This document shows positions 1 through 47,256 of a stretch of 50,012 nt of DNA, piece by piece. The DNA comes from an uncultured Atopobiaceae bacterium. Its GTDB lineage: Bacteria; Actinomycetota; Coriobacteriia; Coriobacteriales; Atopobiaceae. The position numbers and the translations under genes are program-made. The number at the start of each line of letters is the position of its first letter. Within the stretch, counting starts at the first letter, position 1. Location of the stretch: assembly GCA_947625235.1 (NCBI GenBank), contig CANQNP010000005.1:1-50012 (forward strand). The letters are read 5' to 3'. The notes under the pieces were generated by a model that did not search any database, was not told the origin of the DNA, and saw only the letters and a list, made by a program, of their open reading frames with translations.

Positions 1-1241
1 TAGTCCGCGACGATGAGGAAGTACGCCGCGAAGCCCTTGCCGCAGATGATCTCGTACTCGTGCTCGAAGCGCTCCACGACGTCCGGGCGCGCGGTCTTCC
101 AGTCGGCGCCATAGCGCTTCGCGAGGCCGATCTCGCAGTCGCGGCGCAGCTGGCTCTCGTTCGTCTCGCCCTCGTCGAGCGGGAACTGCGGGAGGAGGAT
201 GTTGCCCCACTCGAACTCCACGTTGCACTTCTCGGCGATCTCGAGCGTGGTGTCCGCCGCCTCGGGGATCCAACTGAAGAGCGCGCGCATCTCCTCCTCG
301 CTCTTCATGTAGAACTCGCCCTCGCCGCTCTCCGTGCGCTGCATGTGGAAGCGCTGCGTGTCGGAGAGGCTCTTGCCGCTGCCGATGCAGGCGAGGATGT
401 CCTCCGCGAGCGCGTCCTCGCGGTTGAGATAGTGGAAGTCGTTCGTGCACACCACCTTGCAGCCGATCTTCTTGGCGATGGCCACGAGCTGCTCGGAGAT
501 CTGGCGGTCGGTCTTGGGGTTCGCGTCGCGGTGGTACGTGAGGCCGTGCTCTTGGATCTCGATGTAGAAGTCGCCCGGGGCGAAGAGGTCCCTCAGGGTC
601 TCCGCCCAAAGGAGGGCGTCTTCGGGGTTGTCCTCGCGGATGCGCTTGGCGACGATCCCCTGCACGCAGGCGGACGTGCACACGAGCCCCTCGGCGTGCG
701 CGCGGAGCACGGAGAGCGTGACGCGCGGCTTGTAGTAGAAGCCGTGGACCGCCGCGTCCGAGACGATCTTCATGAGGTTCACGTAGCCCCGCTGGTTCTT
801 CGCGAGGAGGATGAGGTGGTAGAGCTCGGGCCTCCCCTCCCTCGAGAGGGTCTCGTCGGGCGTGAAGTAGATCTCGCAGCCGTAGATGGGCTTGATGCGC
901 GGCTGGGGCTTCACGTCCGCAAGCGGCGCGCCCTTCGCGATCTGCGCCTGGTCGAGCTCCCACTGGGCGTGCGAGCGGGGATTCTCGGGGTCGAGCTCGG
1001 ACTGCTCGCGGCCGTGTTCGAGGTTGTCGAGGTCGTGGAACCACTGCTGCCAGTCCGGCTCGGCGTGGTTCACGCGATCCGTCTCGGTGGCGAGCTCGGG
1101 CACGCCGTACATGAAGCCGTGGTCGGTGATGGCCACGGCGGGCATGCCGAGCTTCACGGCCTTGCCCACCATGTCCTTCACGCGCGTGGCGCCGTCGAGC
1201 ATCGAGTAATCCGTGTGGTTGTGGAGATGTACGAATGCCAC
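1..1241 (-). CDS. dnaE: DNA polymerase III subunit alpha, N-terminal part (runs off window)
   Basis: Replicative polymerase alpha subunit; the visible 413 codons cover the PHP domain and the start of the palm region. The GTG start at 1241 is followed by AFVHLHNHTDYSMLDG, the first PHP metal motif. AITDHGFMYG, a CTSAC segment and NDFHYL follow, so the PHP metal-binding residues look retained. About 55 extra residues, rich in W, D, E and H, sit between the DHG motif and the IKPIYGCE motif, where most DnaE proteins have a short linker. The gene is divergent from the membrane-protein gene at 1458. Its promoter probably lies at 1281-1308. The 3' end lies outside the window. Confidence 0.95.
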   Translation of the reverse strand, partial: MAFVHLHNHTDYSMLDGATRVKDMVGKAVKLGMPAVAITDHGFMYGVPELATETDRVNHAEPDWQQWFHDLDNLEHGREQSELDPENPRSHAQWELDQAQIAKGAPLADVKPQPRIKPIYGCEIYFTPDETLSREGRPELYHLILLAKNQRGYVNLMKIVSDAAVHGFYYKPRVTLSVLRAHAEGLVCTSACVQGIVAKRIREDNPEDALLWAETLRDLFAPGDFYIEIQEHGLTYHRDANPKTDRQISEQLVAIAKKIGCKVVCTNDFHYLNREDALAEDILACIGSGKSLSDTQRFHMQRTESGEGEFYMKSEEEMRALFSWIPEAADTTLEIAEKCNVEFEWGNILLPQFPLDEGETNESQLRRDCEIGLAKRYGADWKTARPDVVERFEHEYEIICGKGFAAYFLIVAD

Positions 1242-1280: not shown

Positions 1281-1308
1281 AGCCTACCACCAGAACTTGA
1301 CGAGAATT
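1281..1308 (-). promoter_or_regulatory. Putative dnaE promoter of the TTCTCGT-N13-TANNNT class
   Basis: On the minus strand AATTCTCGT is followed by 13 bases and TAGGCT, about 40 bases before the dnaE GTG. The same arrangement with identical spacing occurs before gatC (12867-12893) and the nucleotidase gene (18131-18158). There is no TTGACA-like -35. The promoter role is inferred from position and recurrence. The rest of 1242-1457 holds a TATATA at about 1388 that could serve the plus-strand gene, but I see no convincing -35 for it. Confidence 0.45.
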
Positions 1309-11040: not shown

Positions 11041-12533
11041 GCGAGCTCGCCTCCCTTCCGCGCACACGCCGGCGCCACGGCGCCCTCCGCCTCGAAGGCG
11101 CGCTCGATCGCGCGCGCGAAGGTGAGGAGCCGCCGATCCTTGAAGGCCGGGCCCTGGAGCTGCACCGCAAGCGGCATGCCGCTCTCGGGCCCCGGCCCCA
11201 CGGGCACGGAGATGGAGCCGTTGCCCGCGATGTTGCTCGAGATCGTGAACATGTCGGAGAGGTACATCTCCGTGGGGCTCGAGATCTCGCCGAACTTGAA
11301 CGCCGTGCGCGGCGCCGACGGGAAGAGCAGCACGTCCGCGCGCTCGAAGGCCGCCGCGTAGGAGCGCGTGATGAGCGTGCGCGCCTGCTGGGCCTTGTAG
11401 TAGTAGCGGTCGTAGACGCCGGAGGAGAGCAGGTACGCGCCGAGCATCTGGCGACGCTTGGCCTCGGCGCCGAAGCCCTTCGCGCGGCTCTTCTCGCTCT
11501 GCTCGGCGAGCGTGGCGCAGCCAGGCTCCTGATAGCCGTAGCGCACCCCGTCGAAGCGCGCGAGGTTCGAGAAGGCCTCGCAGGGACCGATCACGTAGTA
11601 CGCGGCGATGGAATCGTCGATGTGCGGGAGCTCCACCTCGATGGTCTGGGCGCCTTGGTCCTCGAGCGCCTTCGCCGCGGCCCGCACCGCGCCGCGCACC
11701 TCGCCCGAGATGCCCTCGGCTTCACAGAGCGCGGGCACGAGGCCCACCCTCAGGCCCTCGACGCCGTCCTCGAGGTGCTCGAGGAAGTCGACCGGGCACT
11801 CCTGGCTCGTGGAATCCATGGGGTCGGCCCCCGGGCCCACGAGCGCGTTCATGGCCATCGCCACGTCCTCCACGCGACGCCCGAAGGGCCCCACCTGGTC
11901 GAGCGAGGAGCCGAACGCGACGATGCCGTAGCGGCTCACGGCGCCGTACGTGGGCTTCAGCCCCACGACCCCGCAAAACGCCGCGGGCTGGCGGATGGAG
12001 CCGCCGGTGTCGGAGCCGAGCGAGAGCGTGACCTCGCCCGACGCGACGCTCGCCGCAGATCCTCCCGAGGAACCGCCGGGCACGCGCGCCGTATCCCACG
12101 GGTTCGCCGTCTTGCCGAAGTAGCTCGTCTCCGTGGAGGAGCCGAAGGCGAACTCGTCCATGTTCGCCTTGCCCATGGGCAGGCATCCGGCGTCGACCAT
12201 GCGCTGGACGCATGTGGCCGTGTAGGGCGATTCGTAGTCCTCGAGCATCCTCGAGCCGCAGGTCGTGCGGCTCCCGATGAGGTTCATGTTGTCCTTCACG
12301 GAGAGCGGCACGCCCGCGAGCGGCGGCAGCTTCTCGCCCCTCGCGCGCATCTCGTCGAGCTCGCGCGCCCGCTTGAGCGCGAGCTCCTCCGTCACCTGCA
12401 GGAGCGCGTGGATCTCGCCGTCGCGCGCGGCGATGGCGTCGAGCGAGGCGCGCGCCACCTCCTCCGCGGAGAACTCCCCCGCGGCCACGCCCCGCGCGAT
12501 CTCGGCCGCGCTCAGCTCGTCGAAGCAGCTCAT
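11037..12533 (-). CDS. gatA: Aspartyl/glutamyl-tRNA(Asn/Gln) amidotransferase subunit A
   Basis: 498 residues, amidase-signature family. It hydrolyses glutamine and channels ammonia to GatB. The Lys-Ser-Ser catalytic triad is visible: Lys80 in LSVKDN, Ser155 in PGGSSGGSA and Ser179 in SDTGGSIR. Start and stop both overlap neighbouring genes by 4 bases (gatC before, gatB after), as in a tightly coupled gatCAB operon. Length and motifs are normal. Confidence 0.97.
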   Translation of the reverse strand: MSCFDELSAAEIARGVAAGEFSAEEVARASLDAIAARDGEIHALLQVTEELALKRARELDEMRARGEKLPPLAGVPLSVKDNMNLIGSRTTCGSRMLEDYESPYTATCVQRMVDAGCLPMGKANMDEFAFGSSTETSYFGKTANPWDTARVPGGSSGGSAASVASGEVTLSLGSDTGGSIRQPAAFCGVVGLKPTYGAVSRYGIVAFGSSLDQVGPFGRRVEDVAMAMNALVGPGADPMDSTSQECPVDFLEHLEDGVEGLRVGLVPALCEAEGISGEVRGAVRAAAKALEDQGAQTIEVELPHIDDSIAAYYVIGPCEAFSNLARFDGVRYGYQEPGCATLAEQSEKSRAKGFGAEAKRRQMLGAYLLSSGVYDRYYYKAQQARTLITRSYAAAFERADVLLFPSAPRTAFKFGEISSPTEMYLSDMFTISSNIAGNGSISVPVGPGPESGMPLAVQLQGPAFKDRRLLTFARAIERAFEAEGAVAPACARKGGELA

Positions 12534-12835
12534 GAGAGCCCTCCCGTGCCGAGGATCGACGGCACGCGGAAGAGGCGGCCCTCGGTGGCGTGCGCGTTCT
12601 CGAGCGCCGGCTCGAGCTCGAGCCCGGGCCGCACCTCGTCTGCGCGCATCACGTCGGAGAGGTCGCCGATGGGATGGAACGTGGGCTCGACGCCCGCGGG
12701 GTCGAAGTCCACGATCGGCTGGAGCATCGCGACGGCGTCGTTCATGTAGGCCGTCATCTCACGCAGTTCCTCGTCATCGAGGCCAATGCGCGCGTACTCG
12801 GCGATCGCGCGCACGTCGTATTCGGAAAGCGCCAT
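12530..12835 (-). CDS. gatC: Aspartyl/glutamyl-tRNA(Asn/Gln) amidotransferase subunit C
   Basis: 101 residues. This small helical subunit wraps around and stabilises GatA-GatB. The pattern MALSEYDVRAIAEYARIGL, a central acidic helix and VMRADEV fits GatC. The ATG at 12835 follows a GGAGG about 7 bases upstream; an earlier in-frame GTG-type start has no such site. First gene of the operon, with a promoter of the TTCTCGT class just upstream. Confidence 0.95.
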   Translation of the reverse strand: MALSEYDVRAIAEYARIGLDDEELREMTAYMNDAVAMLQPIVDFDPAGVEPTFHPIGDLSDVMRADEVRPGLELEPALENAHATEGRLFRVPSILGTGGLS

Positions 12836-12866: not shown

Positions 12867-12893
12867 ATTGTAGGGAACCAGGTTTACGAGAAT
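12867..12893 (-). promoter_or_regulatory. Putative gatCAB promoter of the TTCTCGT-N13-TANNNT class
   Basis: On the minus strand ATTCTCGT, 13 bases, then TACAAT (5 of 6 to the -10 consensus), ending 31 bases before the gatC ATG. The spacing is identical to the dnaE and nucleotidase boxes. Confidence 0.5.
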
Positions 12894-12970
12894 GTGACAG
12901 CTCGACGCTCAGGAGACGCTGACGTTTTTCGGACTCCCTCTCTCCACCATTGTCGAGGCAAGGACTTTCG

Positions 12971-15816: not shown

Positions 15817-18066
15817 CTACTGGCCGATGGCCTTCACGGCGTACCAGCCGATGTCCTCGTAGTCCCAGCCGAGCTCGTCGAGCTCGTCCTTCTCGGCCTC
15901 GGACGTCGTCCAGAGATGGCTTCCCGCGCCGCCGTTGGCCGTCATGTAGGGGTTCCAGAGGCGATAGACCGGCACGTCGCTCGTCTTGGGCGCCCAGAAG
16001 GCGATGCCATCGGAAACCCAGCCATTTGCATCGAGGAGCATGAGGCCCTGCGCCTCGGCCGTGGAGGTGGTGAAGAGGTGGTCGCCGTTATAGCGGTTGT
16101 AGAGGCGATAGACCGGCATGTACTCGTTGCCCTCGTTGAAGGGATCGTCGGGGTTGTCCGATTCGCCGTACTCGGTGAAGCGCGCGCCCTCGTTCGTCCA
16201 GCCGAGGCCGACGAGCGTCTGGACCTCGTCGACGTCGATCGTGAAGAGGTGCTCGCCGCTCCAGCGGTTGTAGAGGCGGATCACCGTGGCGGGCGTGCCG
16301 ATGAGGTTGATGCGGCCCTGGCCGTTCGGGTTCGCGTAGGCGCTCCCGATCGTGCCGTGAAGGTCGTCTTGGAGGTACGTGACGAGCGCGTCGTAGTCGA
16401 GGCCGGCATCGGGGCGAAGGTACGTGCAGTCGGCGAACATCGGGTAGTCGCCGGAGGCGTTGAGCAGGAGCGGGATCGTGGCGAGGGTGTAGGTCTTGCT
16501 CGCATCGATTGGCTCGTCGCCCACCATCACGTCGCTCACGCGTCGCGTGACGAGGGGGTCGATCGAATCGAAGCCGCCGTCGGCGTTCTCTTTGACGGGG
16601 CTCGGGATCGACACGTCGGCCGTGAAGGTGATGCCCGAAACCTGCAGGAAGGAGCCCATGTTCTCCGTCGCGTCATCCATCGCGGGCGTGAGCTTGTGCA
16701 CGCTGTACTCAAGCGCGTCGAGGAGGTCCTGGCCGCTCACCTCCACGAGCTGGAGGTTGTTCGCGAAGGAGTTGATGGAGATGAAGTCTTGGTAGGTCAT
16801 GGAGCCCGGCGCCTTGCCGAAGGTGCCGTTCGCGAGCGGCTCCACCCACGTCTGCGGGGCGCGAATGCCGCCGCCGTTGATGAAGGCCACGTCGGCGTCG
16901 AGAAGGGCACGGTAGGCGTCGGCCACGTAGTCGCCGAGGTTCGTCTCGTGCATGCGCGCGGCGTACCACCAGGGCTCGCCATTCTCGTTCGGGCCGTAGA
17001 CGGAGAGGCCGACCTCGGAGGTTCCCACCTGTTGGCCGAGCTCCGCGTTGACCGCGGCCTGCTTCGCGGCGACCGCGCTCGCCACCGTCGCGTCCTCGGC
17101 CACGGGCGCGTCGAGGTCCGCCGCCACGACGACCTCGCTCGTCACGTCCTCGGGGCCGGGCGTGTCGTCGGGCGTGATCGTCATCTTGCCGTAGGCCGCG
17201 AACTGCGTGCCGCACTGGGCGACGCTCACCTGCTGGCCGTCTTTATTCGGAAGCGTGGTGTTGTAGACCTGGTGCGTGTGGCCGTCGATCACGCCGTCGA
17301 TGCCGGTCGTGTTCGCCACGACGGCGGTCGAGGTGTAGCACGCGGGCACCGTCGAGGTGGCGTCCTTGCCGAGGTGCGCGATGGCGATCACGTAGTCCGC
17401 GCCGGCCGCCTCCGCGGCGTCCACGCTCTTCTGCACCTGGGCGTAGAGCGCCTGGCCGTCGTCCTCGCCGTAGAAGCTGTAGATGGTGGCCCCGGAGGCG
17501 TCCTGGAAGATGCTCGGCGCCTCGGAGGTGAGCGTCGTGGGGGTGGTGATGCCGACGTAGGCGACCGTCACCTCCTGGCCGTCCACTGAGTAGGTCATGA
17601 GCGTGTACGGCTCGAAGAGCGCCTCGCCCGTCTGCGTGTTCACCACGTTGCAGGACACGTAGGGGTAGCTCGCCATCTTCGCGAGCTCCTGGAGGCGCGG
17701 GATGCCGTAGTCGAACTCGTGGTTGCCGGGCACGGCGACGTCGTAGGCCGCGGCGTTCATGAGATCCACGAGGTCGGCGCCGGTGGAGATCGTGCCGATG
17801 GGCTGGCCCTGGATGGCGTCGCCCGCGTCCACGAGCGTGACGTTGTCCTCGCCGAAAAGGGCCTCGGCGTCCGTGGCCGCCTGCGCGATGCCCGCGTAGC
17901 CGATGGCGCTCGCGCTGGTGGCGAGGCCCCCGCAGTGGACGTCGTTCGAGTGGATGATGGCGATGCCCGAGTTCGGCTCATCGGCGCGCGCAACGACGGG
18001 CGCGAGGCCCACGAGGAGCGCGGCGAAGAGCGCCGCGAGCACGAAGGGATGACGGTGGCGATTCAT
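15817..18066 (-). CDS. Secreted 5'-nucleotidase / 2',3'-cyclic phosphodiesterase family protein with C-terminal DUF5648-like repeats
   Basis: 749 residues. A signal peptide (basic start, hydrophobic 8-25, cleavage near ARA-DEP) directs export. The calcineurin-like phosphoesterase domain shows HSNDVHCG, DAGD, GNHEFDYG and DGHTHQVYN. The 5'-nucleotidase C-terminal domain shows FINGGGIRAP and, near its end, a NASGDYPMF variant of the usual GGDGY-like loop. The last 200 residues hold three repeats of the YRLYNR..G.HLFT..GW type, matching DUF5648. I see no LPXTG motif or membrane anchor. A likely role is extracellular nucleotide salvage with wall association through the repeats (inferred). ATG 18066 is preferred; an in-frame ATG two codons upstream is possible. 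Confidence 0.88.
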   Translation of the reverse strand: MNRHRHPFVLAALFAALLVGLAPVVARADEPNSGIAIIHSNDVHCGGLATSASAIGYAGIAQAATDAEALFGEDNVTLVDAGDAIQGQPIGTISTGADLVDLMNAAAYDVAVPGNHEFDYGIPRLQELAKMASYPYVSCNVVNTQTGEALFEPYTLMTYSVDGQEVTVAYVGITTPTTLTSEAPSIFQDASGATIYSFYGEDDGQALYAQVQKSVDAAEAAGADYVIAIAHLGKDATSTVPACYTSTAVVANTTGIDGVIDGHTHQVYNTTLPNKDGQQVSVAQCGTQFAAYGKMTITPDDTPGPEDVTSEVVVAADLDAPVAEDATVASAVAAKQAAVNAELGQQVGTSEVGLSVYGPNENGEPWWYAARMHETNLGDYVADAYRALLDADVAFINGGGIRAPQTWVEPLANGTFGKAPGSMTYQDFISINSFANNLQLVEVSGQDLLDALEYSVHKLTPAMDDATENMGSFLQVSGITFTADVSIPSPVKENADGGFDSIDPLVTRRVSDVMVGDEPIDASKTYTLATIPLLLNASGDYPMFADCTYLRPDAGLDYDALVTYLQDDLHGTIGSAYANPNGQGRINLIGTPATVIRLYNRWSGEHLFTIDVDEVQTLVGLGWTNEGARFTEYGESDNPDDPFNEGNEYMPVYRLYNRYNGDHLFTTSTAEAQGLMLLDANGWVSDGIAFWAPKTSDVPVYRLWNPYMTANGGAGSHLWTTSEAEKDELDELGWDYEDIGWYAVKAIGQ

Positions 18067-18130
18067 ACACATACCTGCGCTTCCCACGTAATTCTCTTAA
18101 AGCCGCCCCAGAGGGCGGCGAAGCCCTCCT

Positions 18131-18158
18131 ACGATACCGCCGAACCCCGACGAGAATT
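18131..18158 (-). promoter_or_regulatory. Putative nucleotidase promoter of the TTCTCGT-N13-TANNNT class
   Basis: On the minus strand AATTCTCGT, 13 bases, then TATCGT, 64 bases before the start codon. The bases upstream (GTGCG) also match those at dnaE. The leader would carry a GCCGCCC/GGGCGGC hairpin (18102-18119). Confidence 0.45.
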
Positions 18159-39011: not shown

Positions 39012-39040
39012 ACAATATACGTCCTAAGCTAGGGTGTCAA
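39012..39040 (-). promoter_or_regulatory. str operon (rpsL) promoter
   Basis: TTGACA, 17 bases, TATTGT on the minus strand (alternative TATATT with a 15-base spacer), about 80 bases before the rpsL start. Best sigma-70-type match in the window. Confidence 0.8.
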
Positions 39041-47227: not shown

Positions 47228-47256
47228 AGAATACAAAGGTCCCCCCTCCCCGTCAA
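47228..47256 (-). promoter_or_regulatory. rpoBC promoter
   Basis: TTGACG, 17 bases, TATTCT on the minus strand, about 55 bases before the rpoB GTG. Separates rpoBC from rplJL, together with the rplL terminator. Confidence 0.75.

Follow-up and report, generated by a model that had tools for sequence, protein, structure and literature searches.

The DNA analyzed here (the window) is a stretch of 50,012 nucleotides from the genome of an uncultured Atopobiaceae bacterium. On the minus strand of the window, dnaE, gatC, and a gene for a 5'-nucleotidase/UshA-like protein are each preceded by a nine-base box that is separated by exactly 13 bases from a -10 hexamer of the form TANNNT. The genes, their promoter elements, and two ordinary promoters included for contrast are as follows.

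1..1241, minus strand: 5' part of dnaE, with a GTG start at 1241; the gene continues beyond the window.
1281..1308, minus strand: dnaE promoter element, with the box AATTCTCGT at 1300-1308, a 13-base gap, and the -10 TAGGCT at 1281-1286.
12530..12835, minus strand: gatC, followed by gatA (TIGR00135, TIGR00132).
12867..12894, minus strand: gatC promoter element, with the box CATTCTCGT at 12886-12894, a 13-base gap, and the -10 TACAAT at 12867-12872.
15817..18072, minus strand: 5'-nucleotidase/UshA-like gene, predicted to be driven by the box at 18131-18158.
18131..18158, minus strand: nucleotidase promoter element, with the box AATTCTCGT at 18150-18158, a 13-base gap, and the -10 TATCGT at 18131-18136.
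39012..39040, minus strand: ordinary promoter, TTGACA-17-TATTGT, downstream of rpoC; it is the rpsL promoter according to the preliminary description only.
47228..47256, minus strand: ordinary promoter, TTGACG-17-TATTCT, upstream of rpoB.

The product of 1..1241 is DNA polymerase III alpha (TIGR00594, E = 3.1e-87). The best NCBIfam match to the product of 15817..18072 was NF040549 (E = 3.4e-44), which falls under the cut-off of that model. The start codons of dnaE, gatC, and the nucleotidase gene are located 31 to 58 bases after the end of the -10 hexamer. In the preliminary description the three elements had been read as TTCTCGT-N13-TANNNT, and these strings were confirmed on the minus strand at 1281-1306 (TAGGCT), 12867-12892 (TACAAT), and 18131-18156 (TATCGT). 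The sequence GTGCG, which was said to be common to two of the boxes, lies outside of the element, is one base farther away in the copy before the nucleotidase gene, and is not conserved at other sites. Promoters with TTGAC at a spacing of 17 had been claimed for rpsL, rpoB, and rplJ; an exact search returned two, those at 39012-39040 and 47228-47256.

Orthologues of the nucleotidase gene are also preceded by the box in two congeneric genomes, G003 (AATTCTCGT, L437) and G004 (AATTGTTGT, L432). For dnaE, either AATTGTCGT or AATTGTTGT was found at the equivalent place in four of five congeners, and the box is missing in the fifth (L093). No evident box was found upstream of dnaE from Collinsella, Olsenella, or Kribbibacterium. 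The gatC box is the weakest of the three in the window, with two departures from AATTGTCGT, and an identical box precedes the gatC orthologue of G003 (L433), the only orthologue to show one. Given these two departures and the single orthologous box, the gatC box taken alone could be a chance member of the class.

A search of the genome (1,731,449 bases) for TTCTCGT-N13-TANNNT returned three matches, all within the window, and no matches to the reversed pattern used as a control. When one mismatch was allowed within the window, three matches were observed; shuffled windows averaged 0.66 matches, and three were reached in 4 of 100. The enrichment within the window is weak on its own, and the choice of the pattern was itself post hoc. 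TTCTCGT was found to be a minority spelling and was rejected as the consensus: it has three copies in the genome, and in a search of 60 relatives it did not clearly exceed control outside of the genus. Freeing the third base in a one-mismatch scan uncovered 11 TTGTCGT-N13-TANNNT sites elsewhere in the same genome. When the gap in TTGTCGT-N{6,20}-TANNNT was allowed to vary, it was exactly 13 in 11 of 15 pairs from this genome. The fixed spacing of the preliminary description held up across six congeneric genomes, where, with gaps of 4 to 24 bases permitted, 35 of 65 TTGTCGT...TANNNT pairs were found at 13 and every other gap accounted for four pairs or fewer.

Two further counts were made on about 401 kb of the same genome. 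In the first, which was made without conditioning on the -10 in a 401-kb sample that includes the window, TANNNT follows exactly 13 bases after five of the seven AATT[GC]T[CT]GT 9-mers; TANNNT has a background of ~0.001 per position, and no such case arose in 60 first-order Markov resamples. In the second, a weight matrix whose training set includes some of the scored sites gave eight sites above 18 bits at a spacer of 13 and none at 18 other spacers, with three for the reversed control over all spacers.

The alignment of 38 distinct sites gave AATTGTCGT at -34 to -26, followed by TANNNT, which was fixed by the search pattern. AATTGTTGT was found to be as common as AATTGTCGT, so the box is AATTGTYGT and the consensus of the class is AATTGTYGT-N13-TANNNT. 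The two bases before TT are AA in 32 of the 38 sites, and 25 of these 32 have G at -22. A scan of the six congeneric genomes with two mismatches allowed returned 199 sites, compared with 39 for the reversed pattern; the sites in G000 (the genome of the window), G003, G002, G005, G004, and G001 number 43, 38, 27, 39, 27, and 25, with controls of 6, 10, 1, 12, 3, and 7, respectively. These results support a second class of promoters, which lack TTGACA and hold the gap constant at 13 bases. A spelling taken from a single window and wrong in one base can still lead to a real class.

The spelling AATTGTCGTN13TANNNT (AATTGTCGT) is confined to the genus, with 28 matches and no controls in the six congeners and 1 match and 4 controls in 64 other genomes. 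For AATTGTTGTN13TANNNT (AATTGTTGT), the matches and controls were 38 and 0 in the genus, 41 and 0 in 67 other genomes of the family, and 5 and 7 in 47 genomes of other families. A class restricted to the genus was rejected, since AATTGTTGT is present throughout the family. Outside of this genus, the family has the element in the form AATTG-TTGTCCGGTC-N7-TANNNT or a variant of it. The conserved DNA reaches -22 in the genus of the window and -20 in the other genera. Several of the surveyed genomes are incomplete assemblies.

The three promoters belong to a genus-wide set of about thirty, which stand before recA and genes for replication and repair. Pfam families were matched for 22 of the 26 target proteins scanned from the genome of the window; this set excluded L254, for which the frame is doubtful, and three copies of the box without a chosen downstream frame. 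The target starts were chosen by a simple rule, without independent gene calls, and gene names beyond the Pfam family are our reading of domains and N-termini. The replication and repair targets include dnaX, a DHH-family gene (recJ), two UvrD-type helicases, dnaB, and sbcD. The other targets include metK, the metG-, valS-, asnS-, and proS-like synthetases, purH, GH5 and HAD proteins, a YugP-like zinc peptidase, LigB/AMMECR1, a radical SAM protein, a Cas3-like HD helicase, and ddl. The Cas3-like HD/DEAD gene lies behind its class promoter at L247:3-1484 (minus strand) on contig C82. Two paralogous genes on contigs C6 and C101 (L242:1162-1380, minus strand, and L256:166-390, plus strand) encode small acidic proteins of 73 and 75 amino acids that begin with MKVQIDVD; these proteins have no Pfam match, and promoters of the class with AATTGTTGT and AATTATTGT are found upstream.

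The recA gene of this organism was not found in the parts of its genome that were examined. In the congener G005 the targets include recA (L423), recQ (L413), trigger factor, purE, and a DNA methylase. In other genera, elements in the same register were found upstream of recA (L371, G017), DHH/recJ in two genera (L396, L407), the zinc peptidase (L401), GH5 (L383), purE (L380), a HIRAN protein (L392), and priA (L223). The targets that recur in both the genus of the window and other genera are DHH/recJ, the zinc peptidase, GH5, purE, and recA. A gatC target in genus g4 (L235, L236), which was guessed from the N-terminus, was dropped; the frame is 289 residues long and its product is unlike GatC.

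The register of these elements is that of a known mycobacterial promoter type. The published RecA-NDp consensus is tTGTCRgtg-8 nt-TannnT, which places TTGTC 17 bases before the -10 (PMC5656591). The mycobacterial activator PafBC is reported to reprogram the housekeeping holoenzyme by inserting between promoter DNA and sigma domain 4; the helix-turn-helix of PafB reads a -26 motif, and PafBC is activated by single-stranded DNA (PMC11804915). Its regulon is described as rich in genes for replication, recombination, and repair, and recA has such a promoter (PMC8223512, PMC5656591). The promoters described here resemble the PafBC/RecA-NDp (P1) promoters in that a TTGTC-like element is found 17 bases before TANNNT with no usable -35, the targets include recA and genes for replication, recombination, and repair, and a PafB-PafC pair is encoded.

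In the AATTG-TTGTCCGGTC-N7-TANNNT form from the other genera, TTGTC occupies the exact RecA-NDp position, and the letters of that consensus are largely present, most clearly in g4. The pattern TTGTCNGKK-N8-TANNNT returned 22 matches and no controls in the four g4 genomes, with the letters TTGTCCGGT. In the noncongeneric genomes of the family besides g4, it returned 98 matches and 82 controls (120 and 82 with g4 included), and in the genus of the window 4 matches and 6 controls. In families f2-f10 it was below control, with 37 matches and 84 controls, and neither promoter motif was enriched there, though several of these families encode the PafBC-like pair. Tandem PafBC-like pairs with neither motif enriched were observed in f4, f6, f8, and f10 (G039, G041, G058, G052, and others). 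The promoters in the genus of the window differ from RecA-NDp in having TYGTn followed by RRG, a fixed upstream AATTG, and an altered PafB recognition helix. The set also differs in that it includes dnaE, dnaX, dnaB, tRNA synthetase genes, metK, and pur genes.

A tandem pair of WYL proteins, in the operon order B-C, is encoded in the genome of the window (G000:C24) and in most genomes of the family. The family profile of the first genes (A1) gave a full-length match to the PafB half of 6SJ9 (E = 8.7e-43), and that of the second genes (A2) gave a full-length match to the PafC half (E = 6e-52). The HTH_PafC domain was found in 9 of 15 second genes, and the PafB proteins of the genus were matched to the other PafB proteins with an hhalign probability of 99.5. 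The two proteins from the genome of the window gave, singly, only weak WYL matches in Pfam (E = 2.3e-7 and 8e-6) and, as single queries against the PDB, no match to PafBC, being too diverged; their probable assignment as PafB and PafC rests on the family profiles. No match was found for 16 PafB-like proteins against NCBIfam. A third WYL protein, which has a WCX domain and lies outside of the PafBC pair, was observed at G000:C6:34740-34979 (L361), and G003 likewise has a third WYL match.

R44 and R48 of PafB are reported as strictly conserved, and changing the M. smegmatis equivalents reportedly gave the deletion phenotype (PMC6789036). At the position of R44, the five PafB proteins from the genus of the window have T, M, T, A, and A, whereas 9 of 11 others have R or K; R/K44 is therefore also absent from 2 of the 11 proteins outside of the genus. 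D49 is lost in all five and kept in 10 of the 11 others, and the position of R48 is R or K in all five. The change in the PafB helix and the change in the box fit a co-change of protein and DNA site, though the five related proteins may represent a single event. The altered R44 lowers the case for canonical membership among the PafBC-dependent RecA-NDp promoters and leaves unaffected the case for working like them.

The preliminary description had offered either an alternative sigma factor or an activator box overlapping the -35. The second class and its fixed gap stand, the activator box fits best, given the mycobacterial RecA-NDp register and the PafB-PafC-like pair, and the sigma factor is disfavored by the ordinary TANNNT -10. 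We consider it probable that the boxes belong to sigma-adaptation promoters of the PafBC type (RecA-NDp-like), that their sequence is specific to the lineage, and that the activator takes the place of the -35. This proposal builds on what was observed directly, namely, the element, its rigid spacing and spread, the target genes, the PafB/PafC-like pair, and the register. The housekeeping sigma factor (sigma A) would recognize the TANNNT -10, and the heterodimeric WYL-domain activator PafB-PafC would be positioned between the DNA and sigma region 4, its PafB helix-turn-helix lying on the element from -29 to -22. An activator in that position would make a TTGACA -35 unnecessary and would hold the box at a rigid distance from the -10 ("sigma adaptation"). 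From an arrangement like that of the other genera, [AT-rich 5-mer]-TTGTCCGGTC-N7-TANNNT, the genus of the window would have drifted to AATTG-TYGTnRRG-N9-TANNNT, and during this drift its PafB recognition helix would have lost residues that are conserved elsewhere. The predicted regulon consists of genes for DNA replication, recombination, and repair, together with those for tRNA charging, SAM, and purines, and it is probably raised upon DNA damage through single-stranded DNA. Against this reading, the RecA-NDp consensus is matched within the genus by position more than by letters (the TTGTC core has become TYGTn), and the published RecA-NDp motif contains nothing equivalent to the fixed upstream AATTG.

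It is odd that dnaE, metG, and valS, which are essential and need basal expression, would have a purely damage-induced promoter. It is conceivable, though doubtful, that the genus has rewired PafBC into a growth-coupled form of sigma adaptation with a new DNA specificity that routinely drives genes for the replisome, tRNA charging, SAM, and purines. If so, some thirty to forty promoters would have changed in step with the recognition helix of PafB, and dnaE, dnaX, and dnaB would be activated routinely and not only upon DNA damage.

A PafBC-type damage-response promoter class would, under the preferred reading, be placed in gut Coriobacteriales, with core replication genes inside the promoter set. 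It would also be a natural example in which an activator and all of its promoters changed together between related genera. Within the literature library searched, no paper contained both "PafBC" and "Coriobacteri", and a search on Coriobacteriia promoters returned nothing pertinent.

It is unlikely that a different monomeric activator or cofactor unrelated to PafBC, such as an unassigned HTH protein, WhiA, or a ClgR-like protein, binds near -30 and appropriates sigma A. As in other sigma-appropriating architectures, the box is centered near -30, and a -10 is present but no -35. At the middle promoters of phage T4, a nine-base MotA box near -30, ~13 bases before the -10, replaces the -35 through sigma appropriation. 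The T4 promoters differ in using the phage proteins AsiA and MotA and another box sequence. The Pcauto promoters of acetogens are similar in that a lineage-restricted motif is tied to essential genes and a transcription factor is reported to aid sigma A (PMC6873888), but the TetR-family activator CAETHG_0459 comes from another factor family and another phylum, with no sequence link shown. ClgR has been reported to recognize the mycobacterial P1 motif (PMC5656591). The Streptomyces promoters activated by WhiA/WhiB resemble the class in their asymmetric monomer site (PMC3781837, PMC4850268), with WhiA described as a monomer on GACAC (PMC3781837). However, the orientation of GACAC is reported to be variable at those promoters (PMC3781837), and GACAC is absent from the boxes described here; WhiA was rejected on its motif, since the consensus contains neither GACAC nor GTGTC. 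PafBC is favored by the register, by the co-change of PafB, and by the presence of recA and recJ among the targets.

It is improbable that an alternative sigma factor, most likely a SigB/SigF-type protein of 290 residues, reads AATTGTYGT as a shifted -35 together with the TANNNT -10. A sigma-70 search of the genome of the window returned three matches, of which the strong ones were RpoD and this SigB/SigF-type protein. A second strong match to sigma-70 region 4 besides RpoD was found in this genome and in nearly all of the f1 genomes searched, and the rigid distance from the box to the -10 is typical of sigma recognition. However, the -10 is an ordinary TANNNT, and the conserved DNA extends to -22 in the genus and -20 in the others, beyond the usual reach of sigma region 4. 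SigB/SigF-type promoters have the form GTTT...GGGTA, and the 32 aligned sites show no preference for GGG or GTTT at -15 to -13 or in the box. The targets include core replication and tRNA charging genes and not general stress genes, and families f3 and f10, which show no enrichment of the motif, have the same SigB/SigF-type sigma factor. The gene for the 290-residue protein is located at about G000:C11:32547 (L292), and G029 has two neighboring copies.

The very remote reading that three similar strings were selected by chance or by the reader and share no function draws on the confinement of the exact pattern to its defining window, the 4 of 100 shuffles, and the one-mismatch matches in the genome, which barely exceed control (48 versus 37 in total), and it is refuted for the class by the freed consensus, the spacing, the orthologous promoters, and the control counts beyond the window.

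L235 and L225 had suggested a palindromic operator, which was rejected because its left arm is not conserved. At L235 (about 1500-1560; contig 10 of G008), two divergent boxes overlap at AATT and form the perfect palindrome GACCGGACAACAATTGTTGTCCGGTC between two genes.
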